Shown one piece after another: positions 860 through 31,347 of a stretch of DNA of 36,091 nt. The position numbers and the translations under genes are program-made. Below the pieces are notes generated by a model, which did no database searches, was not told the origin of the DNA, and saw only the letters and a list, made by a program, of their open reading frames with translations. Position 1 is the first letter of the stretch. Each line of letters starts with the position of its first letter. Origin of the DNA: a virus; the IMG/VR virus record IMGVR_UViG_3300050821_004344, positions 1 to 36,091 of that record; one strand, written 5' to 3'.

Positions 860-1717
860 ATGTTTCCTAAGATACGAGATAAATGTTTCCTTGATGGTAC
901 TGTTGATCAAACAAATTGTGAAATAACTGAAAAAATAGATGGTTCACAAATTTCATGGAGAAAGAAAAATGGAGAACTATCTATCTACAGTAAGAATTAT
1001 CAGATTTACCCTTCACTTAAACCAGTGCAAAAGACTTTTAAGCCGGCTGTCACATATTTACTAAGTATTTGTGACAAAATCGCAGTCGGATATATATATT
1101 ATGGTGAGACTTTAGCAACGCCTAGACATAATGTTATTCGCTATTCGCGAATTCCAAATAATAATTTAGTCTTATGGGCTGTTAATGACCTCCCTTTAAA
1201 TAAATGGTTAAACCAGTTTGAACTTAAACATGAAGCAAAGTCTCTAAGCATTGAGTATTTAATACCACTAAATACTGAAGAAGACCCCGTAAATGAATCT
1301 TGTCTAGGCGGTGTAATAGAAGGTGTCGTTTATTCTTATTTGATAAATAATTCTAGAGATATCATAAAGTTTAAAAAAGTAAATGAAGCTTTTTACGAAA
1401 TACGTCAACAATCAAAGGAAAATAAAAATTTACTACGTGGTGCTCAAACGGATACCTGGGGGGAATTTAAAAACAGATTTAAAACTGAGGCTCGTTGGAA
1501 TAAGGCAATTCAACATTTACGTGATCAAGGTGTATTAGAAAATAAAGAATCTGACATAGGATTACTTTGTAAAGAAACTATGTGTGATATTTTATTGGAG
1601 GAAGAAAAAACCATTCAAGACTTTTTTAACAAAACATTTCGTAAAGAGCTGTTAAAACATGCAATAACTGGTTTAGCAGATTATTATAAAAACTATTTAA
1701 TAGAGAATAAATCATGA
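860..1717 (+). CDS. ATP-dependent RNA ligase (Rnl2-like nucleotidyltransferase)
   Basis: Enzymes of this family seal nicked or broken RNA through a lysyl-AMP intermediate. All nucleotidyltransferase motifs are visible: motif I EKIDGS at 24-29 with Lys25 as the adenylated residue; the SKN element at 44-46; motif III YYGE at 80-83; motif IIIa around NLVLWAV at 102-108; motif IV EGVV at 154-157; motif V IIKFKK at 168-173. Residues from about 175 on are helical and fit the C-terminal domain of the Rnl2/RNA_ligase (PF09414) type. At 285 aa the length suits that family. In T4, RNA ligase repairs tRNA cut by a host anticodon nuclease, and a similar counter-defence or RNA-repair role is a reasonable inference. 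A DNA ligase is less likely because no OB-fold DNA ligase motif VI is evident. GGAGG lies nine bases upstream of the start. Confidence 0.85.
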   Translation: MFPKIRDKCFLDGTVDQTNCEITEKIDGSQISWRKKNGELSIYSKNYQIYPSLKPVQKTFKPAVTYLLSICDKIAVGYIYYGETLATPRHNVIRYSRIPNNNLVLWAVNDLPLNKWLNQFELKHEAKSLSIEYLIPLNTEEDPVNESCLGGVIEGVVYSYLINNSRDIIKFKKVNEAFYEIRQQSKENKNLLRGAQTDTWGEFKNRFKTEARWNKAIQHLRDQGVLENKESDIGLLCKETMCDILLEEEKTIQDFFNKTFRKELLKHAITGLADYYKNYLIENKS

Positions 1718-2358
1718 AAAAGTTATTAGCTGGTATTGCTATAGGAGCCTTAGGATTAAGTTTAGTAGGAGGTATTAATTTAAATGTGAACCCCGCTGTT
1801 AATTTAGATCAAGTACTAAACCCTTATCAAATAACAACCCATTTTCAATGGGTTGGTGAACATTACGATATCAATCTAGGTAATACTTTAGGTGATGCAG
1901 ATAGTGTGCAACCAGTGTTAACATTATTACAGAATGCTGGCCATAATGATACAATAACTTTTCATATTAAAGGTTATGGTGGAGATGTGGACGGTATGTT
2001 TGCATTAATTAATGCTATAAATAGCAGTAAAGCGCATGTCTTAATGTCTGTCGAAGGGAATTCTTATAGTGCATACGCAGGCCTTGCTACAAGCGCAGGC
2101 ACTCTTCATATTGATAAATATGCGTTGCTTATGTTCCATATGGGCAGTATTAATGGTGTTGATTGTAATACAGTTACGGGCATGTTTGACGGTATACCAG
2201 CAGCTGTTTCATGTCAAAATGACAAAAACGCCTACGTTACTGAGTTAACTACTATGATCAATAATGATAGGATATTAACAGCTTCTGAGAAACAATCAAT
2301 TTTAGCAGGAAATGAGCTATATTTAACGTCAGCACAAGTGCAGGCTAGAATATTATGA
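1714..2358 (+). CDS. exported ClpP/crotonase-fold serine peptidase
   Basis: 214 aa. Residues 1-20 form a signal peptide or membrane anchor (KK followed by a hydrophobic Ala/Gly/Leu stretch), so the enzyme probably acts in the periplasm or on the membrane. The rest has the ClpP-like landmarks: Gly-Gly at 89-90 before the oxyanion strand (GYGGDVDGMFALINAI), Ser119 in NSYSAYAG at the nucleophile position of ClpP (ASMGA), and His142 in MFHMGS. The third catalytic residue cannot be placed by eye. Soluble ClpP has no signal peptide, and phage ClpP-like head proteases sit in capsid operons, whereas this gene lies between an RNA ligase and a transporter-like gene. The start overlaps the ligase stop as ATGA. 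A second ClpP-like gene without a signal is at 6615. Substrate unknown. Confidence 0.8.
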   Translation: MKKLLAGIAIGALGLSLVGGINLNVNPAVNLDQVLNPYQITTHFQWVGEHYDINLGNTLGDADSVQPVLTLLQNAGHNDTITFHIKGYGGDVDGMFALINAINSSKAHVLMSVEGNSYSAYAGLATSAGTLHIDKYALLMFHMGSINGVDCNTVTGMFDGIPAAVSCQNDKNAYVTELTTMINNDRILTASEKQSILAGNELYLTSAQVQARIL

Positions 2359-3182
2359 AAATCTTTAACCGCAGAAAACTATATATTTATTTAATTGCTC
2401 TAGTTATTGTTGAGCTTTGCTTAACAATGTATCTTGCTAATTGGAGGAGTACATTTTGGAATGCGGTTTCATCCCATAATGAGAATGTTTTTATTGTTTA
2501 TTTGATATATTTTGCAATAGCAGCATTATCATTATGTTTTATAGGAAGTTATGAGGGCTATTTGATTACATTGATAGCCCTTTCATATAGAACTGAATTA
2601 ACTAAGAAAGCTTTAAAAACAACAATTGATCACATGGCTTTAAGCCAAATAAAACAGGAAGATTGTTTACTATATCCACAATTATTGTTAAATCTAATCA
2701 TTGGCATATTACGGAACGCTTGTTTATTAGTTATATACGGTTATTTTGTAGTATTAGTTAGTCCTTGGTATTTGCTTTATCCGGTTATTTATGCTATACT
2801 TAGTTCATTAGCAGGGTATAAATTAGCTTTCCCATTGATTAATTTAAACTATATTAATCAGAACATGGAGGCTAAATTTAGACAATGTTTAACAAAAAGA
2901 AACTATGGTAAAGCCTTTGTGAATAACTTTAATTTAGCTAAATCTACGAAATTATTAGGCTATTGGCAAATAGGTGTAAGCCAGCTTAGTGTTGTATTGC
3001 CCTACATTTGTTTAGCATCTTTATACTTTAGTTTTAGAATTACCTTTGGTATTTTGATGCAAGTAGCCAGTGCAATGAACTCTATGACTGATTGCTTAGG
3101 GTTCTATTTACAAAGTTTTAATGATATAAACAAACTATTGTCTTGTAGAAAACGATTACTTGAAATTGGAGTATTAAAATGA
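2355..3182 (+). CDS. SbmA/BacA-like peptide-transporter membrane protein, no ATPase domain
   Basis: 275 aa with about six membrane segments (roughly 9-28, 45-64, 66-78, 108-135, 138-158, 208-226). Family landmarks of the SbmA/BacA/YddA group can be followed: NWRSTFWNAV at 29-38 (SbmA has a D-W-Y-x-x-F-Y-x-A-L motif), a Q-x(n)-ED motif at 98-103, MEAKFRQCL at 171-179, PYICLASLYF at 215-224, then ITFGILMQVASAMNSM at 229-244 and a closing RKRL at 265-268. SbmA imports peptides, including microcins and proline-rich antimicrobial peptides, using the proton gradient and without its own ATPase, which fits the missing nucleotide-binding domain. The protein is shorter than SbmA (about 400 aa). ATGA overlap joins it to the exported peptidase gene. 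It could instead be a different transporter-fold protein used to modify the envelope. Confidence 0.6.
   Translation: MKIFNRRKLYIYLIALVIVELCLTMYLANWRSTFWNAVSSHNENVFIVYLIYFAIAALSLCFIGSYEGYLITLIALSYRTELTKKALKTTIDHMALSQIKQEDCLLYPQLLLNLIIGILRNACLLVIYGYFVVLVSPWYLLYPVIYAILSSLAGYKLAFPLINLNYINQNMEAKFRQCLTKRNYGKAFVNNFNLAKSTKLLGYWQIGVSQLSVVLPYICLASLYFSFRITFGILMQVASAMNSMTDCLGFYLQSFNDINKLLSCRKRLLEIGVLK
2772..2800 (+). promoter_or_regulatory. possible internal promoter before the primase-helicase genes
   Basis: TTGCTT at 2772-2777, 17-base spacer, TATACT at 2795-2800 with extended -10 TGC at 2792-2794. The -35 is weak, but ATGCTATACTT repeats the -10 region of P1. It lies inside the transporter-like gene and would serve the genes from 3179 onward. 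Confidence 0.35.
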
Positions 3183-3370
3183 GAAGTTATACTGTTAAGG
3201 ATGTAGAAGAGAAACTAATAATGAATCTTAATGATTTAAAAGAATTGTTATTAAAGCACCCTTTGGAATGCTCTGCTGATCAAGCAGTTCAATTATTAAA
3301 TAGATACGAAAGAATGGAAGAAGAAATATTAATGATGTTATCACCGGTGGAGAGAGATTATGTTAATTAA
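3179..3370 (+). CDS. hypothetical small protein, 63 aa
   Basis: ATG overlaps the upstream stop (ATGA) and is preceded by TTGGAG with seven-base spacing. The product is acidic and helical (DVEEKLIMNLNDLKELLL, then QAVQLLNRYERMEEEILMML) and may form a short coiled coil. It overlaps the primase start by 11 bases and carries that gene's ribosome site (GGAG). No family recognised; the position suggests a replication accessory or a simple coupling gene. Confidence 0.65.
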   Translation: MRSYTVKDVEEKLIMNLNDLKELLLKHPLECSADQAVQLLNRYERMEEEILMMLSPVERDYVN

Positions 3371-4058
3371 AGGAGGACAGCCATGTGATGATTGTGGATC
3401 TAGTGACGCATTAGCTCAATATGAAGATGGCACATACTGTTTTTCATGTGGCAACAGAACAAAACAGATAGATGGCACTTTAGTAAGTGATTGTCATATG
3501 TATCATGTACCACATACTGAACCCGTTGTAAAGGGTAGTATAGTAGATTGCTTTTTGAAACAAAGGCATTTTACGGATGGGATTATATTTGAATATGACT
3601 TACGTCAAACGATGGACGGCCAAAAGCTAGTAATTTTAGACCAATATTTAGGTATAGCAGATATTCGTAGTATTGGTTATAGCACTGGCCCTAAATATAT
3701 AGGCGTAGCATCGAAGAAGCATTTTTTTGGGAGATGTACATACAGTACTCGTTACATTATTCTTGTAGAGGATGCTATAAGTGCAATTCGTCTTTCAGCT
3801 GCGGGGTACCATTGTGTAGCGCTTCGTGGTACTAAGTTAAGTGAAACAATGCTACAAGAGTTGTGTGGATTTTGGGAAGGTACTCATATTGTTACCTGGC
3901 TAGATGATGATGCAGCTGGTCACCAAGGCGTTATAGATATTCTTCATAAATTAAACTGGTGTAACCTAAAATTTACGAACATTTTGACGGAAAAAGACCC
4001 TAAATGGTACACAGATAACGAATTAAAAGCGATATTGGAGAAACATAATGTTATTTGA
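3360..4058 (+). CDS. T7-like DNA primase (zinc-binding plus Toprim)
   Basis: 232 aa, corresponding to the primase half of T7 gp4. The N-terminal zinc finger has Cys9, Cys12, Cys27 and Cys30 (PCDDCGSSDA, then YCFSCG), which reads the priming site on the template in T7. A Toprim fold follows, with the metal-binding acidic residues at Glu137 (ILVEDAISAI) and Asp182/Asp184 (WLDDDAAGHQG). It would synthesise RNA primers for lagging-strand replication. In T7 the primase and helicase are one polypeptide; here they are two genes separated by a 65-aa gene. The ribosome site GGAG lies in the end of the preceding gene. Confidence 0.9.
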   Translation: MLIKGGQPCDDCGSSDALAQYEDGTYCFSCGNRTKQIDGTLVSDCHMYHVPHTEPVVKGSIVDCFLKQRHFTDGIIFEYDLRQTMDGQKLVILDQYLGIADIRSIGYSTGPKYIGVASKKHFFGRCTYSTRYIILVEDAISAIRLSAAGYHCVALRGTKLSETMLQELCGFWEGTHIVTWLDDDAAGHQGVIDILHKLNWCNLKFTNILTEKDPKWYTDNELKAILEKHNVI

Positions 4059-4245
4059 TGATGCAACAAGGTATAAGCTAACATTAGACGCAGAAATTAA
4101 ATATTTAACTAAGGAAGAAATGGCCATATTTTTGCATAAATGGAATCTATCCTATAGATATGTGGCAAAATCTGCACATAAAGGTATTTTAGAATTTTTT
4201 AATGATTACATAGATATCATATTTGATGTGGTGCTGTATGATTAA
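4048..4245 (+). CDS. hypothetical protein between primase and helicase, 65 aa
   Basis: Good ribosome site (GGAG, seven bases before ATG) inside the primase 3' end, with an 11-base overlap. The product has aromatic and charged residues (KWNLSYRYVAKSAHKG) and an acidic hydrophobic tail (YIDIIFDVVLYD). It has no recognised domain. It overlaps the helicase start at 4238 and sits exactly where T7 gp4 would join its primase and helicase halves, so a bridging or loading role is possible. That is inference from position. Confidence 0.6.
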   Translation: MLFDDATRYKLTLDAEIKYLTKEEMAIFLHKWNLSYRYVAKSAHKGILEFFNDYIDIIFDVVLYD

Positions 4246-5482
4246 TGAACTTACACTTTTAAAGATATTTTGCAAACAGAAGATATATCGTGAATATAAT
4301 TCGTATGTTCAAAATAAATTATTAGAGTATCATATCAAGGTAATTTTACAAGATTTTGAGGAATACTTTAATATATTCAACAAAGATATTGAGGACTTCT
4401 CCGAATTTTATACCTGGTTTTCACAAACCCGACATCCTAATATTCCAGAAGCAACAAGCATAATTTATAAAGAAATCATTAATAAATTATCCATTATTGA
4501 GGTTGGGATCGGTCCGGAGATTATAAAAGAATTTCAAAAGCGGCACCTTATCACTACTTTAGAAGCACACTTCAAGATAGGTTTTAATATTGATTTTGTT
4601 CAAGAATCTTTAGATTCTTATAAAAAAGATGTTGCAAGTTTATCGCAAGTTGATGAGGATGCTGACGTTATAGAATATTGTCTTAATGATTTATTAAATA
4701 ACATTAATAAAAATGAAGGTTTAAGGTGGCGCTTAAATATGTTAAATGACGGTATTGGCGCGATAAAGAAAGGGTACTTAATTATCGTGGGTGCTTTTGT
4801 TGATGTAGGTAAAACCTCTTTTGCTGTAAGTGAAGCTACCTATATGGCACAGCAATTAACTGAAGGTTGTGTACTTTGGTTAAATAACGAAGAAGAGGAT
4901 TATCGAGTATTACGTAAAATATGGAAATCTGTGTTAAATTGTACTGATGCGGAATTATTAGCTAATCCTGATAAAGCTACCGAAGTTTTTAACCGTAAAA
5001 TGCATGGAGACCCAAAAAGAATTCGTTTAGTAAATATAAGAAAAAAGAGTTTGAAGGGAGTAAGCCGCTTATTTGAGAAGTATAAACCGGCACTTGTTGT
5101 TATTGATCAAGCAGATAAAATATCTAACACATCTTTTAAAGCTTTTAGTGAACCTGGACAATTAAAAAATATTTATGGAGAATTGCGCACACTAGCTAAT
5201 ACATATTGCCCCGTTATTGCCATCAGCCAAGCAGATGCCACTGCAATGTATAAGGCCCGTGATTCTGAAGAGTACTCATATACTTTATATCCCCATCATA
5301 GACAACTTGATGGCTCTAAAATAGGAAAACCCGGGGAAGCAGACGCTATTATTATGATAGGCCGAAGAGCTGAGAACAACACTACGCGTGGGGTACATAT
5401 TTCAAAGAATAAGTTTGGAGATTCTAACTATAAACAAGAGGTCATATATAATGGGGAAAAATGCCGATATTCAAATCCATGA
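4238..5482 (+). CDS. DnaB-like replicative helicase (T7 gp4 helicase type)
   Basis: The ATG at 4238 gives 414 aa; upstream in-frame alternatives at 4223 (TTG) and 4226 (ATG) have no better ribosome site. The RecA-type core shows Walker A GAFVDVGKTSF with Lys192, an acidic NNEEEDYRV element after the beta strand LWL, Walker B ALVVID with Asp290, and a late segment with SQADATAMYKARDS and GEADAIIMIGRR resembling the DnaB motif H3/H4 region. Residues 1-150 are helical and not recognisable. A hexameric 5'-3' helicase unwinding the fork with the adjacent primase and the polymerase at 7458 is the expected role. It overlaps the previous gene by eight bases. Confidence 0.88.
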   Translation: MINELTLLKIFCKQKIYREYNSYVQNKLLEYHIKVILQDFEEYFNIFNKDIEDFSEFYTWFSQTRHPNIPEATSIIYKEIINKLSIIEVGIGPEIIKEFQKRHLITTLEAHFKIGFNIDFVQESLDSYKKDVASLSQVDEDADVIEYCLNDLLNNINKNEGLRWRLNMLNDGIGAIKKGYLIIVGAFVDVGKTSFAVSEATYMAQQLTEGCVLWLNNEEEDYRVLRKIWKSVLNCTDAELLANPDKATEVFNRKMHGDPKRIRLVNIRKKSLKGVSRLFEKYKPALVVIDQADKISNTSFKAFSEPGQLKNIYGELRTLANTYCPVIAISQADATAMYKARDSEEYSYTLYPHHRQLDGSKIGKPGEADAIIMIGRRAENNTTRGVHISKNKFGDSNYKQEVIYNGEKCRYSNP

Positions 5483-5503
5483 GTCTAAAATGGTGGTACT
5501 ATT

Positions 5504-5704
5504 ATGAAAACACTTAGAGAATACTATATTTGTTATGAAGAAATCGATCAATACTCGTTAAAGAGAAATGTTAAAAGTAGTGATGCATTTTTAACTAAAC
5601 TCATGGCATTAGCCCATTATGATAAGATTAAAAACATAGGACTAAACTATAAATTGGTTTCTACTTCAAAATGTGTTTATTTCAAAGACTTGGGTGCATT
5701 ATGA
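5504..5704 (+). CDS. hypothetical small protein, 66 aa
   Basis: ATG with an upstream GGTGG. The product is basic and aromatic (REYYICYEEIDQYSLKRNVK) without a recognised domain. Its stop overlaps the start of the aminopeptidase gene (ATGA), so the two are probably co-translated. It could be an accessory of that enzyme or an unrelated small early protein. Confidence 0.6.
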   Translation: MKTLREYYICYEEIDQYSLKRNVKSSDAFLTKLMALAHYDKIKNIGLNYKLVSTSKCVYFKDLGAL

Positions 5705-6618
5705 AAACTAAATCAACATTAGGTGAAAAGTTTCTTAAGACCTTTATAAACTTAAGACAACAGCATCCTGTAATTGTAGCTGATCTTATTGAAAATTGGT
5801 TATTAAAATATAGTATTAATTATACAATTTATCAGGATACTGAATGTCAGGGTTTATTACGAGATTTTTTTGGTGATGAATCTTATATTTTTCATATTAA
5901 TCCTCAAGTAAAAGTTGAAGATGAACCAATAATTATTGGTAAAGGTGTTTGTTTTGACACTGGCGGGTATAATTTAAAGAAAAGTATGGAAGATATGTAT
6001 TATGATAAAAACGGTGCCTTACTTGCAATAGCTGCCGGAATTGACAATAATACTCCTGCATTGGCTTTTATTGTTTCAAATTTTATTAATGATAATGTAT
6101 TACCAGGTCAGATTTTAAAAGATCCTTATACTGGTTTAAAAATCCTTATAGAAGACACGGATGCTGAGGGAAGAATGGGTTTAGCCCACTGTATAGGATT
6201 GGCGCATCATTTAAAATATAGGGCTATTTTAACAATCGCCACTCTGACGGGGCATGCTCATATGATTACTGGGGATAGGACATATGCAATGGTTCATAGT
6301 AATGAAAAAGGCGATTTGGCTGAGATATTAGTTGATATGTTAGATTGTGAAGAGCATGCACATTTAGAATTATGGCCGGCACCTTTTCATAAGGATTATG
6401 ACAAAAGTATAATAAGTAAAATAAAAGGCGCTGATATAGGAAACTGTGGCAGTTTTAAAGGTGCGGGGACTAGCACAGCATTTAGTTTTCTTAAACGGTT
6501 TAGTAAAGAAACTCATCATATTCATTTAGATATAGCTGCCATGATGCTTGATAAACAAAAGAATGGTTATGTATGGGGATTACCTGAAGTTAGTTATTTA
6601 TTGGAGTTATTAAAATGA
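5701..6618 (+). CDS. M17-family leucyl aminopeptidase (catalytic domain)
   Basis: The ATG at 5701 overlaps the previous stop (ATGA) and gives 305 aa. The protein matches the catalytic domain of PepA/leucyl aminopeptidase, a cytoplasmic two-metal exopeptidase removing N-terminal residues from peptides. Metal and catalytic residues are all in place: Lys81 and Asp86 in GKGVCFDTGG, Lys93 (counterpart of PepA Lys294), Asp102, and the family signature TDAEGRM with Asp154, Glu156 and Arg158. About 75 residues precede the catalytic region, against roughly 250 in PepA, so the N-terminal domain with its DNA-binding function is mostly absent. Next comes a ClpP-like peptidase gene, again with ATGA coupling. 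A peptidase of this family in a phage early operon is unusual; recycling of peptides to amino acids is the simplest reading. Confidence 0.88.
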   Translation: MKTKSTLGEKFLKTFINLRQQHPVIVADLIENWLLKYSINYTIYQDTECQGLLRDFFGDESYIFHINPQVKVEDEPIIIGKGVCFDTGGYNLKKSMEDMYYDKNGALLAIAAGIDNNTPALAFIVSNFINDNVLPGQILKDPYTGLKILIEDTDAEGRMGLAHCIGLAHHLKYRAILTIATLTGHAHMITGDRTYAMVHSNEKGDLAEILVDMLDCEEHAHLELWPAPFHKDYDKSIISKIKGADIGNCGSFKGAGTSTAFSFLKRFSKETHHIHLDIAAMMLDKQKNGYVWGLPEVSYLLELLK

Positions 6619-6620
6619 AT
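6601..6620 (+). repeat. gene-junction repeat, copy 1
   Basis: The 20-mer TTGGAGTTATTAAAATGAAT, holding the end of one gene (ELLK then stop), a ribosome site and the next start, is identical at 17976-17995. Close variants lie at 3166 and 19713. Confidence 0.6.
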
Positions 6621-7211
6621 AAAGAAATTATAACACAAGAAGATGATGATGAGGATTTTGAGGGAAGTTCTCAAGACGTTGTTAAGATTTATGAAGAAAA
6701 AATAAGTAGAAATAAATTAAGTATTTATCTTGATGATAGTTTTGATTCCTGCACGGCGGATTATCGGGAATTATTTCAGAAGTTTAGCAATGCAAAAGCA
6801 GACGATGAGATCCTTTTACATTTAGCATCTTATGGGGGAGATTGTCACGTAGGTTTCCAAATTTGTCACGCAATTAAAAATTGTAAAGCAAATATTATTA
6901 TCAAGGTTGATCAGCCATGTTATTCTATGGGTGCTGTAATGGCCTGTTGTGGGAAGAAATTAATTATGAATCCAGCCACTTTCTTAATGTTTCATAATTA
7001 TTCTGGTGGAAATCGTGGAAAGGGCGGAGAATTGTGTATGTCTATTCGCGAACAGGATAACTGGTTACATCGTTCATTCAAGCATTTTTGTAGCCCCTTT
7101 CTTAATGATGCTGAATTAGAAAGATTACATCAAGACCAAGATATTTATGTACGGGAATGGGATAAAAATTTAAAACAACGTATGAAAAGACATTTTGGAG
7201 TTAAAAAATGA
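6615..7211 (+). CDS. cytoplasmic ClpP-like serine peptidase
   Basis: 198 aa, close to ClpP length, with no signal peptide and an acidic N-terminus (QEDDDEDFEGSS). Landmarks: Gly74-Gly75 in ASYGGDCHVGFQICHAIK, Ser104 in QPCYSMGAVMACCG (the ClpP nucleophile site), His127 in MFHNYSGG. The C-terminal part (REWDKNLKQRMKRHFG) is basic. ClpP needs an AAA+ partner to degrade folded proteins and alone cuts short peptides; no ClpX/ClpA gene is in the window, so it may use a host ATPase or act only on peptides. Its ATG overlaps the aminopeptidase stop and is preceded by the junction sequence TTGGAGTTATTAAA. It is a distant relative of the exported enzyme at 1714. Confidence 0.8.
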   Translation: MNKEIITQEDDDEDFEGSSQDVVKIYEEKISRNKLSIYLDDSFDSCTADYRELFQKFSNAKADDEILLHLASYGGDCHVGFQICHAIKNCKANIIIKVDQPCYSMGAVMACCGKKLIMNPATFLMFHNYSGGNRGKGGELCMSIREQDNWLHRSFKHFCSPFLNDAELERLHQDQDIYVREWDKNLKQRMKRHFGVKK

Positions 7212-7456
7212 GTGCTTTAAAGCAAATACAAAACCCAAAAACAAAAAAATATATTTTAATTGATAGAGAAAAAGGCGTTATAGTAGAGCATCGAGAAATA
7301 GATGGGCCTTACCCTGATATTGAGATTATTACAAAACCAAAAAAACTCTGTACCGAATGTTTATCTAATGGTGTACCATTACTTGTAGTTGATATAATTA
7401 TTGCTCGCATAATAATAGAAAGGCGATCCGCAATAGAAGGTTTAGCGAAGAAATAA
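7208..7456 (+). CDS. hypothetical protein, 82 aa
   Basis: ATG overlaps the previous stop (ATGA), with TTGGAG upstream. The N-terminal part looks like a small beta-hairpin (KYILIDREKGVIVEHR); one Cys pair (LCTECL) follows and then a hydrophobic segment (VPLLVVDIIIARIIIERR). The family is not recognised. It separates the peptidase pair from the DNA polymerase gene. Confidence 0.6.
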   Translation: MSALKQIQNPKTKKYILIDREKGVIVEHREIDGPYPDIEIITKPKKLCTECLSNGVPLLVVDIIIARIIIERRSAIEGLAKK

Positions 7457-10243: not shown

Positions 10244-12181
10244 ATGAACATTTTTGATAAATATAAAAAAGAACATGAGAAAGGGCAACTCTCTCACCTA
10301 TCTTTAGATGAATATTTAAAGATTTGTAAAAAAGACCCGTCTGCGTACGCAAGTGCGGCAGAACGTATTTTAAAGGCTATAGGAGAACCCGAATTAGTGG
10401 ATACTTCCCGTAATAGCAAATTAGCGGCAATTTTCTCTAATCGTATTATTCGTGTTTATAAACCTTTTGCTGATTTTTATGGCTTAGAAGATATTATTGA
10501 AAAAATTGTATCTTTCTTTAGACATTCTGCGCAAGGTTTGGAAGAAAGTCGACAAATACTTTATTTAGTGGGTGCTGTAGGTTCGGCTAAATCGTCTATT
10601 GCAGATAGACTTAAAGATCTCATGGAGCAAGAGCCTATCTATTGCCTTGCAGATGCCGACGGCAACGTAAGCCCGGTTCGTGAGTCTCCTTTAGGATTAT
10701 TTCATAGTTCAGATTCTGAGCTATTGGGAATACCTGAAAGAGCTTTATCGTATAAAGCTTCCCCTTGGGCATTAAAAAGAATGACCGAGTACGGTGGAGA
10801 TTTATCTAAATTTACAGTTATTAAAGCGTATCCTAGTTTATCTTATCAATTCGGTATTGCTAAAGTTGAGCCAGGTGATGATAATAACCAAGATATTTCG
10901 GCATTGGTTGGAAAGTTGGATATTCGGAAATTAGAAAAATTTCCACAAGATGATCCAGATGCTTATAGTTATTCTGGCGGGTTATGTAAAGCTAATAGGG
11001 GTTTGATGGATTTCGTTGAAATGTTTAAGGCACCTCTTAAAGTTTTACATCCTTTATTAACAGCGACACAGGAGCATAATTATAATGGAACTGAATCTAT
11101 TGGGTGTATACCTTTTGATGGTATTGTGGTTAGTCATTCTAACTTCTCTGAGTGGGATGTGTTCAAGGCTAAAAAAGGTGTTGAAGCTTTTCTTGATCGT
11201 ATCTATACTGTTCGCGTTCCTTACTGTCTTCGCGTAAGTGAAGAAGTAAAGGTATATCAGAAATTATTAAAATTAAGTAGTTTATCTCAGGCACCCTGCG
11301 CACCACAAACTTTAGAGTTATTAGCAAGATTTTGTGTTATGTCTCGGATTGATACATCGAAAGCTGCTGGTATTGTTAAAACTAAAATTGCTGTATATAA
11401 CGGTGAAAATGTAAAAAATAAAGATAATTTAGCTAAATCCTATGCAGATTATCAAGATTTAGTAGAAAAGCCCGAGGGATTCTCAGGTATTTCAACACGG
11501 ACTGCTTATAAAATTTTATCATTAGTATATAATTATGATGTAAATGAGGTCGGCGCCGATCCTGTACATATGATAGCTGTTATACGTCAAATGATTAAGG
11601 GGGAAGATTATTCCAAAGAACTTGGAGATACTTATGAAGCTTTTCTTGATAGGTGTTTAGCTGAGGATTATTTTAATTATATTGATAAAGAGATTAAAAT
11701 GGCTTGTCTAGATAGTTATGACGAGTTTGGACAAACTATGTTTGACCGTTATATTAAATTTGCAGATGCCTGGATTCAAGATAATGATATTAGAGACCAT
11801 GATACTGGGGAGTTATACGATATTAAACTTCTTGATCAAGAATTATCAAAATTAGAAAAGTCAGCTAACATATCAAATCCAAAAGATTTTCGGCATGAGG
11901 TAGTTAATTTTGCATTACGTTATAGGTCAAGCCATCAAGGTAATAATCCTAATTGGAGAAGTTACGAAAAGTTAAAATTGGTTATTCAATCTACTATGTT
12001 TGAAAAATTAACGGAACTATTACCTATTTTATCTTTTGATGGCCAAGGTAATAGTGCAGATCAAAAGAAACATGATCAGTTCGTAGATACTATGCAAACT
12101 CTCGGTTATACAGCACGCCAAGTTAAGCGCCTTGTGGAATGGTATTTAAGAGCTTCTCAACATAGGAGCAGTTCAAAATGA
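10244..12181 (+). CDS. prkA: PrkA/YeaG AAA+ serine protein kinase
   Basis: 645 aa against 644 in E. coli YeaG, and alignable from memory along the whole length: MNIFDKYKKEHEKG at the start, SAYASAAERILKAIGEPE, NQDISALVGKLDIRKLE, APLKVLHPLLTATQEHNYNG, NPKDFRHEVVNFALR and a final VEWYLRA. The N-terminal two thirds are an AAA+ module and the rest is the PrkA C-terminal kinase-like domain. In the Walker A loop (GAVGSAKSS, 110-118) the glycine before the catalytic Lys116 is Ala115, where YeaG has GPVGGGKSS. YeaG is produced in stationary phase and nitrogen starvation and phosphorylates protein substrates; B. subtilis PrkA has been reported to act as an ATP-dependent protease. The gene is intact. 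ATGA overlap with yeaH. A bacterial origin by transfer is inferred; base composition matches the phage neighbours, so transfer was not recent. Confidence 0.95.
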   Translation: MNIFDKYKKEHEKGQLSHLSLDEYLKICKKDPSAYASAAERILKAIGEPELVDTSRNSKLAAIFSNRIIRVYKPFADFYGLEDIIEKIVSFFRHSAQGLEESRQILYLVGAVGSAKSSIADRLKDLMEQEPIYCLADADGNVSPVRESPLGLFHSSDSELLGIPERALSYKASPWALKRMTEYGGDLSKFTVIKAYPSLSYQFGIAKVEPGDDNNQDISALVGKLDIRKLEKFPQDDPDAYSYSGGLCKANRGLMDFVEMFKAPLKVLHPLLTATQEHNYNGTESIGCIPFDGIVVSHSNFSEWDVFKAKKGVEAFLDRIYTVRVPYCLRVSEEVKVYQKLLKLSSLSQAPCAPQTLELLARFCVMSRIDTSKAAGIVKTKIAVYNGENVKNKDNLAKSYADYQDLVEKPEGFSGISTRTAYKILSLVYNYDVNEVGADPVHMIAVIRQMIKGEDYSKELGDTYEAFLDRCLAEDYFNYIDKEIKMACLDSYDEFGQTMFDRYIKFADAWIQDNDIRDHDTGELYDIKLLDQELSKLEKSANISNPKDFRHEVVNFALRYRSSHQGNNPNWRSYEKLKLVIQSTMFEKLTELLPILSFDGQGNSADQKKHDQFVDTMQTLGYTARQVKRLVEWYLRASQHRSSSK

Positions 12182-13344
12182 ACAAAGGTATAATAGTTGA
12201 TCGTCGAGATACTAAAAATAAATCAGCAGCTAACCGTAAAGCTTACATAGAACGCAGTAAGGAGGTTTTGAAAGAGCATGTGGAACGTTTAGCTAATGCT
12301 AAGAATCGGTCAATTACTGATATCGCCAAGAAACGTGATATAACTATTAGTAAGAAAACATTGAAGGAACCTCAATATCAATATGATATGGATTCTGGTA
12401 GTGTTGATAGGATCTTTCCTGGCAATAAAAAATATGTTAATGGCGACCATATTCCTATTGACCGTAGTGGAGAAGGGGGCGCTGGCGGTTTAGGCGGCGA
12501 CGGGGAGGAACACTTAGACGAATTTACATTTACATTAACGAAAGAGGAGTTTTTAAATATATTGTTTGAAGGTATTGAATTACCTGATTTTATTAAAAAT
12601 GGCATGAAAACTGTGGAATTTTCTCATATGCAGAGGGCCGGCTATACCAAAGACGGTTCCCCATGCCAATTAGATTTAAAGAAAACTTTCGAAAATGCTA
12701 TAGGCCGGAGAATTGCTACACGAACAGAAGAAAAAGAGCCCTCCTATTTAGATGAGATTGATTTAAGATATAAGAACTTTGCAGAAGTCTCTAAACCGAG
12801 CAGGGAGGCTGTTATGTTCTGCATATTAGATGTTTCAGGCTCCATGTCAGAGGTCTTAAAAAACTGGGCTAAAAAATATTTTCTATTACTTTATTTATTT
12901 TTAGAAAAACAATATACTAATACAAAGATTATATTCATCAGGCATCATGATATTGCTAGAGAAGTGGATGAAAAAAACTTCTTTTATGGTACAGATACTG
13001 GGGGTACGGTTATATCTAGTGCTTTAAGACTAACTGCTGATATTATAGCCGAACGTTTTAATGCGAATGACATTAATATTTATATTGCTGAATGTTCAGA
13101 TGGTGATAATACCACTAATGATAATGAGCTTTGTCTTGAAATACTAAAGAATGAACTTTTACCTGTAGTACAATATTATGCCTATTTAGAGGTTATAGAA
13201 GATGCGCGATATGCATCTTCTAGAACATGGGGTAATGTAGTTAAGAAAACATTGGAACCTTTGTATACTAATGTAAAATCTGACACTACTGGAAGGGAAG
13301 AGGATATTTTTAAAGTGTTTAGAAAACTGTTTAAAACAAAGTAA
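12178..13344 (+). CDS. yeaH: YeaH-like DUF444 protein with von Willebrand A domain
   Basis: 388 aa (E. coli YeaH 427). The N-terminal part keeps VDRRDTKNKSAANRKAYIER, a Gly-rich linker (SGEGGAGGLGGDGEEHLDEF) and SHMQRAGYTKDGSPC. The VWA domain holds the metal-ion-dependent adhesion motif DVSGSM with Asp218, Ser220 and Ser222, followed by LLLYLFLEKQYTNTKIIFIRH and GTDTGGTVISSAL, with SDGDNTTNDNE further on. The coiled-coil stretch that precedes the VWA domain in YeaH is mostly missing, which explains the shorter length. YeaH is the constant partner of YeaG; VWA proteins paired with AAA+ ATPases usually act as substrate adaptors or assembly factors. Ribosome site AGGAG, ATGA coupling to prkA. 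Confidence 0.93.
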   Translation: MNKGIIVDRRDTKNKSAANRKAYIERSKEVLKEHVERLANAKNRSITDIAKKRDITISKKTLKEPQYQYDMDSGSVDRIFPGNKKYVNGDHIPIDRSGEGGAGGLGGDGEEHLDEFTFTLTKEEFLNILFEGIELPDFIKNGMKTVEFSHMQRAGYTKDGSPCQLDLKKTFENAIGRRIATRTEEKEPSYLDEIDLRYKNFAEVSKPSREAVMFCILDVSGSMSEVLKNWAKKYFLLLYLFLEKQYTNTKIIFIRHHDIAREVDEKNFFYGTDTGGTVISSALRLTADIIAERFNANDINIYIAECSDGDNTTNDNELCLEILKNELLPVVQYYAYLEVIEDARYASSRTWGNVVKKTLEPLYTNVKSDTTGREEDIFKVFRKLFKTK

Positions 13345-13369
13345 ATATGTAAACTTAAGGTTGACTATT

Positions 13370-14872
13370 ATGAAACAAAATAAACTATTGTATGAAAATA
13401 ATGTTTGGACAGTAGAGATATTATCTAAAATGTGGGATGTTATTGATAATATTGGTTCAAAAGAACTAGGTTTGGATTATTATGCCCCACAAATCGAACT
13501 AATTACTTATGATCAAATGCTTGATGCCTATAGTTCTGTAGGAATGCCCATTATGTATAATCACTGGTCATTTGGAAAATCTTTCATAATGAATCACAGG
13601 CGCTATAAAGCCGGAGAAATGGGACTAGCTTATGAAATGGTTATTAATTCTGATCCAGCAGTGTGTTATTGTTTAGAGACAAACTCAGCTACAATGCAAG
13701 CTTTAGTCCTTGCCCATGCAGCTTGTGGCCATGTTCATTTTTTTAAGAATAATTATATGTTTAAAGATTGGACCGACGCAAGCGGTATATTGACTTATTT
13801 GAAATATGCTAAAAATTATATTGACTACTGTAGTACTACATATGGGGATGATATTGTTGAAAAATTATTAGACGCTTGCCATTCTTTACAAGATTATGGC
13901 ATTGATACTTATAAACGAGGAAAAAAGAAATCTCAGCAAGATATTTTAGATCGGGAAATAACTCGTTTAAAATTTAAAGAGGAAACTTATTCTAAGGAGT
14001 TAGAATCAATACCTGGATTTTCAAAAATAGCTGAGGAAAAGAAGAATGCAGAATTTTGGGCGTCATTCCATAACCGCCTAAAGAAAAATAAACCTGAGCA
14101 ATATACTCCACCCAGACCTTTCCCAGAGGAGAACTTGTTGTATTACTTTGAAAAAAGATCGCCTGTTTTATTTAATTGGGAAAAAGAAATAGTACGTATA
14201 GTTAGAATTATTGCTCAATACTTTTACCCGCAAAGACTTACTAAAGTAATGAATGAGGGTTTTGCTACTGCAATTCATTATACAATTATGAATACTTTAT
14301 ATGATCGCGGCTATATTACAGAAGGGAATATACTTGAATTTTTGCATTCCCATACGGGAGTATGTTGCCAGCCTCCATTATCTTCTATTAACCCCTATGC
14401 ACTAGGTTTTAATATTTTTATGGACTTGAAAAGAATGTGTTTAGACCCTACGGAAGAAGATAAAAAATGGTATCCTGATATAGCAGGTTCTCAAGATTGG
14501 TTAGCTTTGTGGAAAGATTGTGTAGCTAACTATCGAGATGAAAGTTTCATTCTTCAATTTCTATCTCCTAAAGTAATACGTGATATGAAATTGTTTAATA
14601 TATTCTTTACTGATGAAAATGATGAATTTTATACAGTAACTTCCACCCATAATGATGAGGATGTTCATGAAATTAGACTTAAATTATCTAAACAGCATTC
14701 ACTAGATTATTATAGACCCAATATACAAATAATAGAAATGAATTGGGAAGATAATACACTACATTTACTTTCTAAAACAGGAGATAGATATATAAAAGAT
14801 GACGACGAAGAAGAATTGCGAGCATATCTCATGCGTTTGTGGGGATATGACGTATTACTTCATCATGAATAA
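13370..14872 (+). CDS. spoVR: SpoVR/YcgB-like protein
   Basis: 500 aa from the ATG at 13370 (AAGG nine bases upstream); a TTG at 13361 is in frame but overlaps the ribosome site. E. coli YcgB is 510 aa, and long blocks agree: QMLDAYSSVGMPIMYNHWSF, GLAYEMVINSDPAVCY, MQALVLAHAACGHVHFFKNN, QYFYPQRLTKVMNEGFATA followed by IHYTI, INPYALGFNIFMDLKR, and SFILQFLSPKVIRDMKLF. SpoVR is needed for spore cortex formation in B. subtilis; in proteobacteria YcgB belongs to the YeaG-YeaH regulon. The biochemical activity is unknown; the Glu and His in NEGFATAIHY are reminiscent of a zinc hydrolase but not proof. It is 25 bases after yeaH and the last member of the cassette. Confidence 0.94.
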   Translation: MKQNKLLYENNVWTVEILSKMWDVIDNIGSKELGLDYYAPQIELITYDQMLDAYSSVGMPIMYNHWSFGKSFIMNHRRYKAGEMGLAYEMVINSDPAVCYCLETNSATMQALVLAHAACGHVHFFKNNYMFKDWTDASGILTYLKYAKNYIDYCSTTYGDDIVEKLLDACHSLQDYGIDTYKRGKKKSQQDILDREITRLKFKEETYSKELESIPGFSKIAEEKKNAEFWASFHNRLKKNKPEQYTPPRPFPEENLLYYFEKRSPVLFNWEKEIVRIVRIIAQYFYPQRLTKVMNEGFATAIHYTIMNTLYDRGYITEGNILEFLHSHTGVCCQPPLSSINPYALGFNIFMDLKRMCLDPTEEDKKWYPDIAGSQDWLALWKDCVANYRDESFILQFLSPKVIRDMKLFNIFFTDENDEFYTVTSTHNDEDVHEIRLKLSKQHSLDYYRPNIQIIEMNWEDNTLHLLSKTGDRYIKDDDEEELRAYLMRLWGYDVLLHHE

Positions 14873-14892
14873 TAACAACAAGAGGTATAAAA

Positions 14893-15141
14893 ATGTCAAT
14901 TGAGGCTTATATAGTAATTCATAGGACGGAGCACGGCGTAGATTACACTCCGTATTTAATGACTAAAGATGAAGCAAACGAGTATATTTTTAAAAACGAT
15001 AAATTAAATCGTTATCACGAATCCATGCCCATTTTGGCGAGGATACATTTATCAAAACAGGATTATAAACCTGTTTTTGAAGACGATAGAGTTTATGGTT
15101 TAACAACTTTAGGGGGGGGGAGTCATGTCAACAAGAAATAA
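14893..15141 (+). CDS. hypothetical protein, 82 aa
   Basis: AGAGG eight bases before the ATG. The product has a beta-alpha start (EAYIVIHRTEHGVDYTPYLMTKDEANEYIF) and ends in TTLGGGSHVNKK. The codons for LGGG fall in a run of nine G residues (15112-15120). The gene overlaps the next one by 17 bases. Function unknown. Confidence 0.6.
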   Translation: MSIEAYIVIHRTEHGVDYTPYLMTKDEANEYIFKNDKLNRYHESMPILARIHLSKQDYKPVFEDDRVYGLTTLGGGSHVNKK

Positions 15142-15340
15142 AAAAGAAAGGCGGAGGCAAAAATTATATACATCAATAAACAAGTCTCTTAAACAATTAG
15201 GATGGCTAGAACCATCCCTGCAAGGGTTTTCGATAGGTGGATTACATGCTTATGCTGGAATTTTAGCAGAGCGTCTTGTCCAAAAGCATTTATTTACAAA
15301 TCATTTAGAAATCGCGGAGAAAAAAGATGTCAACAACTGA
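15125..15340 (+). CDS. hypothetical basic small protein, 71 aa
   Basis: The start is preceded by the G9 run plus AG, which supplies GGAG as ribosome site. The N-terminal 20 residues are strongly basic (STRNKKERRRQKLYTS) and could bind nucleic acid or another phage protein; the rest is helical (LHAYAGILAERLVQKHLF). It overlaps SSB by 14 bases. No family recognised; the position suggests a replication or recombination accessory. Confidence 0.6.
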   Translation: MSTRNKKERRRQKLYTSINKSLKQLGWLEPSLQGFSIGGLHAYAGILAERLVQKHLFTNHLEIAEKKDVNN

Positions 15341-15920
15341 AATAGTAACAATATTAAATATAGACCAAAATATTGAAAAGAAAAAGAAAGATGGCGGACC
15401 ATATAAAGCTACCATTCTATTAGTAAAACCTATTAGTGGTGGTCAAGCAGGAGAACGTTTAATTCTACAAAGCATTGTAGATAAAGCTGCCGATATGCAA
15501 ACTGCATTAAACACTTTACAAACAGGGGATGTGGCTACCTTAGTGCATCAAGCACGAGAAGGCTCTACATTTACTAATATTGTGGGGGTATATGTAGGTA
15601 ATGTTCCCGATGCACAATCTCAACAAGCTGCTTGGAATGGTGCTGGTGGTGGAGGAGCTGGAAAATCTTATCAAAAAGATACTACAGGCATTCAAGTAGG
15701 AAATGCTTTAAATAATGCCGCCATTTTATTGGCTAATAAGGTGATGAAAGGTACCCTTGAAACAGTAGCTGAGCATGTTCTTATTATTGCTGAGAAACTC
15801 AAAGCTAAATTAAAAGCAGGTACTTATAAACATGTTGAAGGCGCCCCCGCTCAAGCCACCGCGTCTCGTACTTCTGTAGCAGAGACTTTTGTAGAAGATG
15901 ATGATGTACCCTTTAACTAA
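15327..15920 (+). CDS. ssb: single-stranded DNA-binding protein
   Basis: 197 aa. Residues 1-95 form a likely OB-fold with alternating strands (YKATILLVKPI, ERLILQSIV, ATLVHQAREG, TNIVGVYVG). A Gly/Gln-rich segment (GAGGGGAGKS) and a helical part (residues 115-165) follow, and the C-terminus is the acidic tip DDDVPFN, the SSB hallmark that recruits replication proteins. Usual SSB tips end in PF; here one Asn follows. It coats single-stranded DNA at the fork and in recombination with the exonuclease encoded next. Ribosome site GGAG, seven-base spacing. Confidence 0.8.
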   Translation: MSTTEIVTILNIDQNIEKKKKDGGPYKATILLVKPISGGQAGERLILQSIVDKAADMQTALNTLQTGDVATLVHQAREGSTFTNIVGVYVGNVPDAQSQQAAWNGAGGGGAGKSYQKDTTGIQVGNALNNAAILLANKVMKGTLETVAEHVLIIAEKLKAKLKAGTYKHVEGAPAQATASRTSVAETFVEDDDVPFN

Positions 15921-28824: not shown

Positions 28825-31347
28825 TTATGGTAAAAGTGAAAATGTAACCCAAGTTTGTCCTGTGCCTGCATTTATATTTTTAGCTACTCCAGATGTTTGG
28901 TAAGCATATATTTCTAAATAATCCGTTGAACCATTCATATCTACAGTATCATTAATTTGGCACGGGAAACTAGCCGCAAAGCCTGGGGTAAAGCCTGCTA
29001 AATTTTGTGAATAAGCACTCCCAGTTTTATAAATGATAAGTCCTAAAGTCTCTACAGTTGCGATTGTATCAAGCAATGCACTACTTGAGACCAGATATTT
29101 GCCGGCAACAGTGGGTGTAAACCTATGATTCGTTACACCATCAAAATTACTATTTGTATCAAAAGTAACTGCGTCAAATAATACTTTCGTAGCTGTCCCT
29201 GAATTAATAGACTGGTTCGTAGATAAATATGCGCGAGCTTTCGGATAAACACTTGTGCTAGCGGCAGTTACTAAACCTTTAGCATTGACTGTTATATTGG
29301 TATTTTTAAAAGAGCCTATATTACTGTTTACCGATGCAAGAGTAGTAGCATTCCCGCTACTAGTTACATCGCCTGTGAGATTAGCATTAGTGGTAACCGT
29401 TCCGGCTGTTAGTCCGGAGGCTGTACCCGTACAATTAGTTAAAACACCACTTGTGGGGGTTCCTAGTAAAGGTGTTATTAATGTGGGGGTGTTATTTAAA
29501 ACAATTAACCCAGTCCCTGTAGTTCCAGTGGATAAATCAGATAATGCCAATTGTCCTACTGTGACAGGCCCACCTACAGAGGTTTGTTTAAGTACTTGGC
29601 TTGTGCCTCCTGTAGCACTTAGATCAGCATTCGTACCACCATATGAAAGCCCTATCTTGGTACCGTTCCATACTCCTAAATCGACAGTCCCCATAACATC
29701 ATGAGCACCAATGTTTGCATAAATTCTTAAATTAGTATAGCTACTAACAGCAGCCCCAAAATAAATTGGCGCAGTATGTTGATTTACTAAATTATTATTA
29801 GCAATTAAAATATTTGCATTACTTCCATCTAATGAAATGGCATATTGAGAAGCGTTGGCCGATACTCTATTGCCAATGTAATTACCAATTATTGAAACTC
29901 CATTTTGTCCTGTTTTTAAACTTATTGTAGCAGTTCCGGTCGAGTTTTGATCAGATAATGTAAAATAAGATCCTAAAAACTGAATGCATTGTATTGGCAC
30001 TCCTGCATAAGAGTTAGCGGGTTGATTTAAATAAACTAAACTACCCCCGGAAATATCAATATCACATCCAATAAATTGAACATAATCACAATCACCGTCA
30101 ATATAAACCGCTGTAGTATTGACTAAAACCCCATTGGCATTTGTAGGATCAATATGGCAACCTATAAATCTAATATTAGTATAAGCTTTTGAATAAGTAG
30201 CAGCAGTCCCCGTAAGGATAACACCATATGTTCTACAACCATCAATTACACAATTAGAACACCAGACATCATCAATAGTATACCCATGATTAGCATCCAG
30301 TGTAATTCCTGCATTGCCGCTGAAATAACAATTAATAATTTGTATACCATCAGACGCTTGAATTAATAATCCATTAGTTAGACAATATCCGGCAGAGATA
30401 ACAATCCCGGCGGAAGTAGCTGAAGAATTGGAAATAATATGCCCATTTTGGTTACCTCCTCCAAATTCTATACCACTACGTGTAACATAAAAGGCTGATG
30501 ATTGGACATATGTGTATTTATCAATAATTCCTAAAGAACAATTCCCATCACAAAAAACACCTTGATACCCGTCAACTGATAAGATATTACTTATAGTAAA
30601 ACACGACCTATTGTTTATATGGATAGAGGCCCCAGACGACATTAAAATATTGCTATTAATGATGGTTAGATCTTTTATTTCAAAGTATCCCGCCAAAGGA
30701 TTAACTACGGTTGTAGAATAAATAATATCGCCTGAAGTAAAAGTCCCAGCACGGTGTAATGTTGTTGTACTCCTTCCACTTCCATAAAGACAAATCCCAG
30801 AGGCGGTTGTAGTAGGTATATTAATAGTTGCAGAAATAACATATATTCCTGCGGGAATATATACGCCTACGCCCGATCCGGAAGGATTTAGGGCAGCGGC
30901 AGCATTTAATGCTGCTTGTATAGCAATTGTAGCATCTGAACCATCCCCTAATGCTCCATAGTCTTTTACTGAGATAATTTCTATAAATTTATCTTTAACA
31001 TTTCTTGATGTATTTCCATTTACAGATTTTGCTAAGCTTACATCACCTGTGGTAATAGTGCCAAGAGTAGTTATACTTGTTTGTCCAGCATAATTAGAAT
31101 CTATGTCTATAATAGGATTTCCGAGAACTCCACCGCCATTAGTAACAGCTGTTCTATTTACTACTCCTTGAACCGTTCTAGCTACTACTGTCATAGCAGC
31201 GGTGACAGCAATTAGACCAAATCCCCCAGTTATTTCAGAAAATTGGATAGCATCATTTGTAGCACTTGTAAGACTTTCTAAATAACGTCTCGTACTTCGT
31301 TGATTAAATTTATTACTTCTTGGAGATAATGGGGCAATTTCAGACAT
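28825..31347 (-). CDS. tailspike with pectate-lyase beta-helix and C1q-like C-terminus
   Basis: 840 aa. The region from about 124 (IISVKDYGALGDGSDATIAI) is the start of the pectate-lyase superfamily fold (PF12708); residues to about 560 are Ile/Asn/Ser/Gly-rich beta-helix rungs. A fibre-type segment follows (LGTPTSGVLTNCTGTA, TGDVTSSGNATTLASV), and the last 125 residues are a jelly-roll domain like that of the fibre gene (TNHRFTPTVAGKYLVSSSAL, NGSTDYLEIYA). Phage beta-helix spikes commonly degrade capsular or O-antigen polysaccharide; active residues cannot be picked out by eye. It lies right after the gp10-like hub and overlaps it by eight bases. Confidence 0.85.
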   Translation of the reverse strand: MSEIAPLSPRSNKFNQRSTRRYLESLTSATNDAIQFSEITGGFGLIAVTAAMTVVARTVQGVVNRTAVTNGGGVLGNPIIDIDSNYAGQTSITTLGTITTGDVSLAKSVNGNTSRNVKDKFIEIISVKDYGALGDGSDATIAIQAALNAAAALNPSGSGVGVYIPAGIYVISATINIPTTTASGICLYGSGRSTTTLHRAGTFTSGDIIYSTTVVNPLAGYFEIKDLTIINSNILMSSGASIHINNRSCFTISNILSVDGYQGVFCDGNCSLGIIDKYTYVQSSAFYVTRSGIEFGGGNQNGHIISNSSATSAGIVISAGYCLTNGLLIQASDGIQIINCYFSGNAGITLDANHGYTIDDVWCSNCVIDGCRTYGVILTGTAATYSKAYTNIRFIGCHIDPTNANGVLVNTTAVYIDGDCDYVQFIGCDIDISGGSLVYLNQPANSYAGVPIQCIQFLGSYFTLSDQNSTGTATISLKTGQNGVSIIGNYIGNRVSANASQYAISLDGSNANILIANNNLVNQHTAPIYFGAAVSSYTNLRIYANIGAHDVMGTVDLGVWNGTKIGLSYGGTNADLSATGGTSQVLKQTSVGGPVTVGQLALSDLSTGTTGTGLIVLNNTPTLITPLLGTPTSGVLTNCTGTASGLTAGTVTTNANLTGDVTSSGNATTLASVNSNIGSFKNTNITVNAKGLVTAASTSVYPKARAYLSTNQSINSGTATKVLFDAVTFDTNSNFDGVTNHRFTPTVAGKYLVSSSALLDTIATVETLGLIIYKTGSAYSQNLAGFTPGFAASFPCQINDTVDMNGSTDYLEIYAYQTSGVAKNINAGTGQTWVTFSLLP

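Follow-up and report, generated by a model that had tools for sequence, protein, structure and literature searches.

Peptidase genes and an SbmA-like membrane protein in uncultured phages carrying PrkA-YeaH-SpoVR: a possible modular proteolysis set for amino-acid supply

SbmA, an importer of antimicrobial peptides, has a proton pathway formed by a ladder of six glutamates, E193, E203, E269, E276, E287 and E378 (PMC13316013), and YeaG and YeaH help E. coli to survive when nitrogen starvation is sustained (PMC6299236). Phage ClpP proteins of PHROG 1827 are already known from the replication or nucleotide and ribonucleotide reductase (RNR) regions of cultured phages (Roseobacter phage CRP-143, Alteromonas phage AD45-P1), and PepA, an M17 leucyl aminopeptidase, is an enzyme of about 500 amino acids (aa). 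Relatives of all these proteins are encoded in the DNA described here, which is the entire IMG/VR virus record IMGVR_UViG_3300050821_004344 (36,091 bp, classed as 'linear' and probably incomplete) and which we call the window throughout. We regard a modular phage proteolysis set, divided between envelope and cytoplasm, as the most economical account of the data, and we tentatively favour the suggestion that four of the window genes form part of such a set and that it supplies amino acids in starved hosts. The preliminary description of this DNA knew of no comparable phage system, and our search of the open-access literature, whose coverage is incomplete, likewise found nothing equivalent for phage SbmA, phage-encoded ClpP or PrkA/SpoVR phage modules.

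The identities and positions proposed for the four genes hold against Pfam and PHROG profiles, and all four are open reading frames (ORFs) on the + strand:

1714..2358, + strand: ClpP1, a ClpP-fold serine peptidase-like protein, predicted exported, 214 aa (PF00574, PHROG 1827)
2355..3182, + strand: SbmA-like membrane protein, 275 aa (PF05992, PF06472, structure model)
5701..6618, + strand: M17 leucyl-aminopeptidase catalytic domain, 305 aa (PF00883, 4.8e-42)
6615..7211, + strand: ClpP2, a predicted cytoplasmic ClpP, 198 aa (PF00574, PHROG 1827)

Relatives were gathered by SpoVR, ClpP2, SbmA, M48 and PrkA scans of IMG/VR, and all are metagenomic contigs; single-sequence scans of viral contigs with the SbmA-like and M17 proteins returned no relatives, and it was alignments from the SpoVR- and ClpP2-derived relatives that did find them. 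Iterated profiles and simple gene calls were applied to 24 contigs of related uncultured phages. These contigs belong to a phage family of up to about 49 kb, with common replication genes and PrkA-YeaH-SpoVR, and most of them encode a cytoplasmic ClpP. An exported ClpP-fold protein occurs in seven phages (the window, G007, G008, G009, G025, G026 and G030) and an exported or membrane-anchored M48 metallopeptidase in seven (G001, G011, G013, G016, G018, G028 and G054); the two are never found together in one phage, an exclusion (7 and 7 of 15) with a hypergeometric probability of 0.0012, uncorrected for phylogeny. On the PrkA tree the type of exported peptidase changes at least three times, and G030, with its exported ClpP, branches from within the M48 phages, as would be expected if one exported peptidase had taken the place of another. 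M17 occurs in six phages (the window, G013, G016, G027, G028 and G054) and the SbmA-like gene in five (the window, G010, G011, G013 with the near-identical G014 and G015, and G018).

The grouping of the peptidase genes with the SbmA-like gene is more than chance. In four of the five phages the latter lies directly beside a peptidase gene, and each time it is a different one: exported ClpP in the window, cytoplasmic ClpP in G018, M48 in G011, and in G010 an HslV/proteasome-like Ntn protein whose best PDB match is a beta-proteobacterial proteasome homologue (3.8e-6). Under random gene order such adjacency has a P of about 0.0012, in a test that is post hoc and based on a small sample. All four roles are met again in a distant relative, G013, with M48 in place of the exported ClpP; its ClpP and M17 genes are neighbours, as in the window, and its M48 gene lies a few genes from the SbmA-like gene.

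ClpP1 matches the Pfam family CLP_protease (PF00574, 1.3e-5) and PHROG 1827, 'ATP-dependent protease' (4e-25), and the best Foldseek matches of its model, which has a mean pLDDT of 85.5 and leaves the first 30 residues disordered, are all ClpP, with probability 1.0 and moderate whole-chain TM-scores of about 0.5-0.6. The alignment shows that it keeps Ser119 and His142, which together with G89, G90 (ClpP1 numbering) and the first Met are the invariant positions of 20 phage ClpPs. Its N-terminus has a hydrophobic stretch after KK and no clear cleavage site, and may point to an extracytoplasmic location, whereas the two cultured-phage relatives compared with it have no signal-like N-terminus. There are exactly two cysteines in ClpP1 (151 and 167) and nine in ClpP2; other exported ClpPs also have a cysteine pair, at matching positions in five of them and near the C-terminus in G007 and G008, which is consistent with an oxidising compartment. 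The M48 proteins of the relatives resemble the periplasmic metallopeptidases BepA and LoiP in being exported or membrane-anchored HExxH enzymes, but they are short, and in some phages adjacent or close to the SbmA-like gene; the one M48 that was tested had no match in 50,697 phage records.

The SbmA-like protein matches PF06472 (1.1e-8) and PF05992 (2.2e-8), and a profile of the phage proteins finds SbmA 7p34 in the PDB at 7e-22. Structure prediction bears out the fold proposed for it earlier: the best PDB match of the model (mean pLDDT 84.2, pTM 0.73) in Foldseek is the SbmA cryo-EM structures (TMq 0.83, probability 1.0), at about 16-18% identity in structural alignment, and the model predicts a type IV ABC-like transmembrane domain fold with no nucleotide-binding domain within the 275 aa. 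With the SbmA/BacA (SLiPT) importers it shares, besides this fold and the lack of an ATPase domain, a QED motif with the equivalents of E193 and E276 (E102 and E172), two of the six ladder glutamates, and the proteins of G011 and G013 have the same ladder pattern. The transmembrane domains of the ABC transporter D family, YddA and Rv1819c are also comparable, since PF06472 matches as strongly as PF05992 and an incomplete glutamate ladder is reported for YddA too, but the phage protein differs from these transporters in having no nucleotide-binding domain. No ABC ATPase family was found among the window proteins scanned, and a 197-aa ORF at 15327, in which a sequence pattern suggested an ABC-type motif pair, was discarded as a candidate ABC protein when Pfam gave it no ABC family. 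The phage protein is a non-canonical SbmA member. In 85k genomes it has no close cellular relative, only distant SbmA/ABC proteins at no more than 25% identity except for one short 27% segment, and in 50,697 phage records it has no match.

Large marine T4-like phage contigs (L034, L040, L062, L070, L079 and others) encode a fuller SbmA of about 340 aa with all six ladder glutamates, often beside baseplate-like genes. It is a different group, distant from the window protein, and a link of it to PrkA was dropped, PrkA being on 8 of 34 of those contigs, too few to claim. In the SbmA-like protein of G018 (L032, 6013-6729) about 35 residues around the E276 position are absent, by deletion or assembly error.

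The M17 ORF opens at 5671, but its start is likely to be 5701, because an ATGA there overlaps the stop of the ORF at 5504-5704. The protein aligns to M17 chains of the PDB with E-values to 7e-23, and K81, D86, K93, D102, D154, E156 and R158, which comprise all metal ligands and the catalytic Lys and Arg, are invariant in the six phage M17s. In this they are like PepA, but they are stand-alone catalytic domains of about 280-305 aa whose N-terminal domain is absent or very short in place of the usual large one; in the 50,697 phage records M17 has only distant matches, several of them in records resembling bacterial sequence. ClpP2 (PF00574, 5e-9; PHROG 1827 'ATP-dependent protease', 5e-36) keeps Ser-His-Asp in the alignment and has no export signal. 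In fold, catalytic residues and position it is like the PHROG 1827 proteins of the cultured phages, and alone it would be ordinary, but the window adds a partner M17 and an exported paralogue, and several relatives have their own ClpX. No partner AAA+ unfoldase for ClpP2 was found in the window, while on seven relative contigs there is a gene for a ClpX homologue that has both Walker A and a ClpP-docking IGF-type loop (IGF in six, MGF in one), which suggests that the cytoplasmic ClpPs work as ClpXP-type proteases. G028, G029 and G054 have a ClpX homologue with the IGF loop and no ClpP found on the contig, and this ClpX may dock on host ClpP.

We propose that the set is used early in infection by this phage family, which also carries PrkA-YeaH-SpoVR. 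In the cytoplasm ClpP2 would cut protein to peptides, fed by phage ClpX in several relatives and, as we infer, by host ClpX or ClpA in the window phage, and M17 would trim these peptides to amino acids. At the envelope the exported peptidase, ClpP-fold here and M48 in relatives, would cut envelope or periplasmic protein, and the SbmA-shaped protein may move the resulting peptides through the inner membrane, most likely into the cell, where the cytoplasmic peptidases would receive them. The presumed benefit is amino acids for virion protein in what would be a nutrient-poor host, and such salvage would account for the presence, alongside the proteases, of an aminopeptidase and a peptide-transporter-like protein. 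The fullest version of the proposal seems doubtful to us, namely a two-compartment salvage with interchangeable ClpP-fold and M48 peptidases, an SbmA-derived transporter working independently of the canonical proton ladder, ClpXP together with M17, and a link to PrkA-YeaH-SpoVR.

A number of observations speak against amino-acid salvage, in which the periplasm is moreover an assumption. The catalytic Asp position of ClpP1 is occupied by Glu (E201), while the triad acid is Asp in ClpP2 and several exported ClpPs, so the ClpP-fold peptidase claimed in the preliminary description stands in its fold, Ser119 and His142 and departs in its acid. The SbmA-like protein has no TM0, its alignment beginning at SbmA residue 94, and four ladder glutamates are replaced (E203 by L, E269 by N, E287 by N and E378 by K), when in SbmA the loss of single ladder glutamates inactivates or impairs the protein (PMC13316013); with TM0 and four of the six glutamates missing, the peptide importer role assigned to it is not established. 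The four genes do not move as a unit, and in none of the relatives are all four found in the form seen here: M17 changes state five times and the SbmA-like gene four times on the PrkA tree, and the SbmA-like gene is missing from most phages that have an exported peptidase. What remains of the expected co-occurrence and salvage grouping is that the parts recur, are combined again in G013, and keep the SbmA-like gene next to a peptidase. The 4-bp overlaps of ClpP1 with the SbmA-like gene (2355-2358) and of M17 with ClpP2 (6615-6618) are real, but overlaps of 1-8 bp are found in 22 of 50 same-strand neighbour pairs of the window, so the direct coupling of the pairs is not special in itself, and we rejected overlap as evidence of grouping, as it is at background level in these genomes. 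Some exported peptidases are encoded late, an M48 beside lysozyme in G001 (14869-15351), an M48 beside TerL in G054 (30690-31178) and a ClpP-fold protein beside lysis genes in G008 (1075-1722). The PrkA-YeaH-SpoVR trio is also present in many phages that have none of these peptidases in the flanks of about 10 kb that were fetched, which makes its nearness weak evidence for salvage.

The main rival is a division into two functions, which we consider a real possibility, short of probable. ClpP2 or ClpX and M17 would then be tools of cytoplasmic takeover or turnover directed at host or phage regulators, exported ClpP or M48 would act on the envelope, where they would alter or remove surface proteins, block superinfection or ease lysis, and the SbmA-like protein would serve an envelope function and not nutrient import. 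The late genes of G001, G054 and G008 hint at an envelope or lysis role for that subset, and the closest proteins to the M48 of G011 are BepA and LoiP, which act as proteases in outer-membrane assembly, and this suggests outer-membrane work; the SbmA-like gene is much rarer than exported peptidases, and the position of ClpP beside replication or RNR genes in cultured CRP-143 and AD45 agrees with this division as well. However, the window pair and several others are located among the early replication genes, at a distance from those for lysis, the SbmA-like gene adjoins four peptidase types that include a cytoplasmic ClpP and an HslV-like protein, and M17, which completes peptide breakdown, has no obvious takeover role. 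As a separate observation, the late-region exported peptidases of these three phages stand apart from the early copies.

It seems improbable to us that the genes are a loose collection of accessories in compact operons with no common pathway, their peptidases acquired independently and their adjacency due to chance. The patchy distribution of M17 and the SbmA-like gene, the background level of overlaps and the small sample with its post hoc statistics would be expected of such a collection, but the exclusion between exported ClpP and M48 (with the phylogeny caveat given above), the adjacency in four of five phages and the return of all four roles in G013 would not. BacA protects rhizobia from plant peptides, and in parallel the SbmA-like protein might draw antimicrobial or host-made peptides from the periplasm for the peptidases to destroy. 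This detoxification would agree with the import of antimicrobial peptides by SbmA (PMC13316013) and with the neighbouring peptidases, but we hold it very unlikely, given that these aquatic hosts have no known source of such peptides, that the proton ladder is incomplete and that the four proteins have no match to known defence models, save a marginal one of ClpP2 (0.0014). Finally, both ClpPs have 'head maturation protease, ClpP-related' as their best NCBIfam model, and there are several PHROG head-protease matches, but a function of ClpP2, and by extension ClpP1, in head maturation is hardly credible and was rejected: the NCBIfam scores of 63.8 and 38.7 bits fall short of the cut-off, which is 120, PHROG 1827 'ATP-dependent protease' matches better, and both genes are surrounded by replication genes, with the structural genes on the other strand, and do not lie by portal or capsid genes. 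The pairing of ClpP with an IGF-bearing ClpX in relatives speaks against it too.

The surroundings of the four genes, all on the same strand, are as follows:

860..1717, + strand: RNA ligase-like gene (PHROG 548 RNA ligase, 3e-15), context outside the claimed set
3179..3370, + strand: 63-aa ORF overlapping the end of the SbmA-like gene (ORF listing)
3360..4058, + strand: TOPRIM/zinc-finger primase (PF13155, 7e-7; PHROG 47, 5e-14)
4223..5482, + strand: DnaB-like replicative helicase (PF03796, 3.6e-9; PHROG 19, 1.5e-35)
7208..7456, + strand: 82-aa ORF overlapping the end of ClpP2 (ORF listing)
10244..12181, + strand: PrkA, a YeaG-type AAA+ kinase (PF08298, 9e-150; PF06798, 2.6e-51)
12178..13344, + strand: YeaH, DUF444 (PF04285, 4e-117)
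13361..14872, + strand: SpoVR, YcgB-type (PF04293, 1e-137)

The RNA ligase-like gene adjoins ClpP1 upstream with a 4-bp overlap, and the primase and helicase genes separate the ClpP1/SbmA-like pair from the M17/ClpP2 pair. The PrkA-YeaH-SpoVR trio, at 10244-14872 and 3 kb from the peptidase genes, was correctly recognised in the preliminary description, as was its connection with nitrogen starvation in E. coli, which the YeaG/YeaH data support; the three identities, as judged from Pfam matches, we take as certain. Its gene order is that of E. coli yeaGH-ycgB, but the trio is phage-borne, widespread in phages without the peptidases and not diagnostic of salvage. It is widespread among IMG/VR contigs (L162-L225), large phages included, and spoVR, reported in viromes of oxygen-minimum zones as a sporulation gene, may often belong to such a trio. 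In G033 (L161/L242) an HslV/proteasome-like Ntn gene (1645-2190) is placed between PrkA and YeaH; its HslV-like family also supplies the gene coupled with the SbmA-like one of G010, and in cultured phages it is named 'peptidase HslV family'. At 28825-31347 the window also encodes a protein of 840 aa that has a weak match to pectinesterase (2.7e-4) and may be a tail spike. When we attempted to assign a host, no tRNA and no cultured relative were found.

If the suggested amino-acid supply is true, some phages carry their own protein-recycling route for making virions in a starved host, a route that would draw on envelope as well as cytoplasmic protein, and their burst size would depend on amino-acid supply. 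Whatever its purpose, the alternation of an exported ClpP-fold protein with M48, and the link of an SbmA-fold protein with peptidase genes, are a recurrent and so far unexplained property of this phage family.

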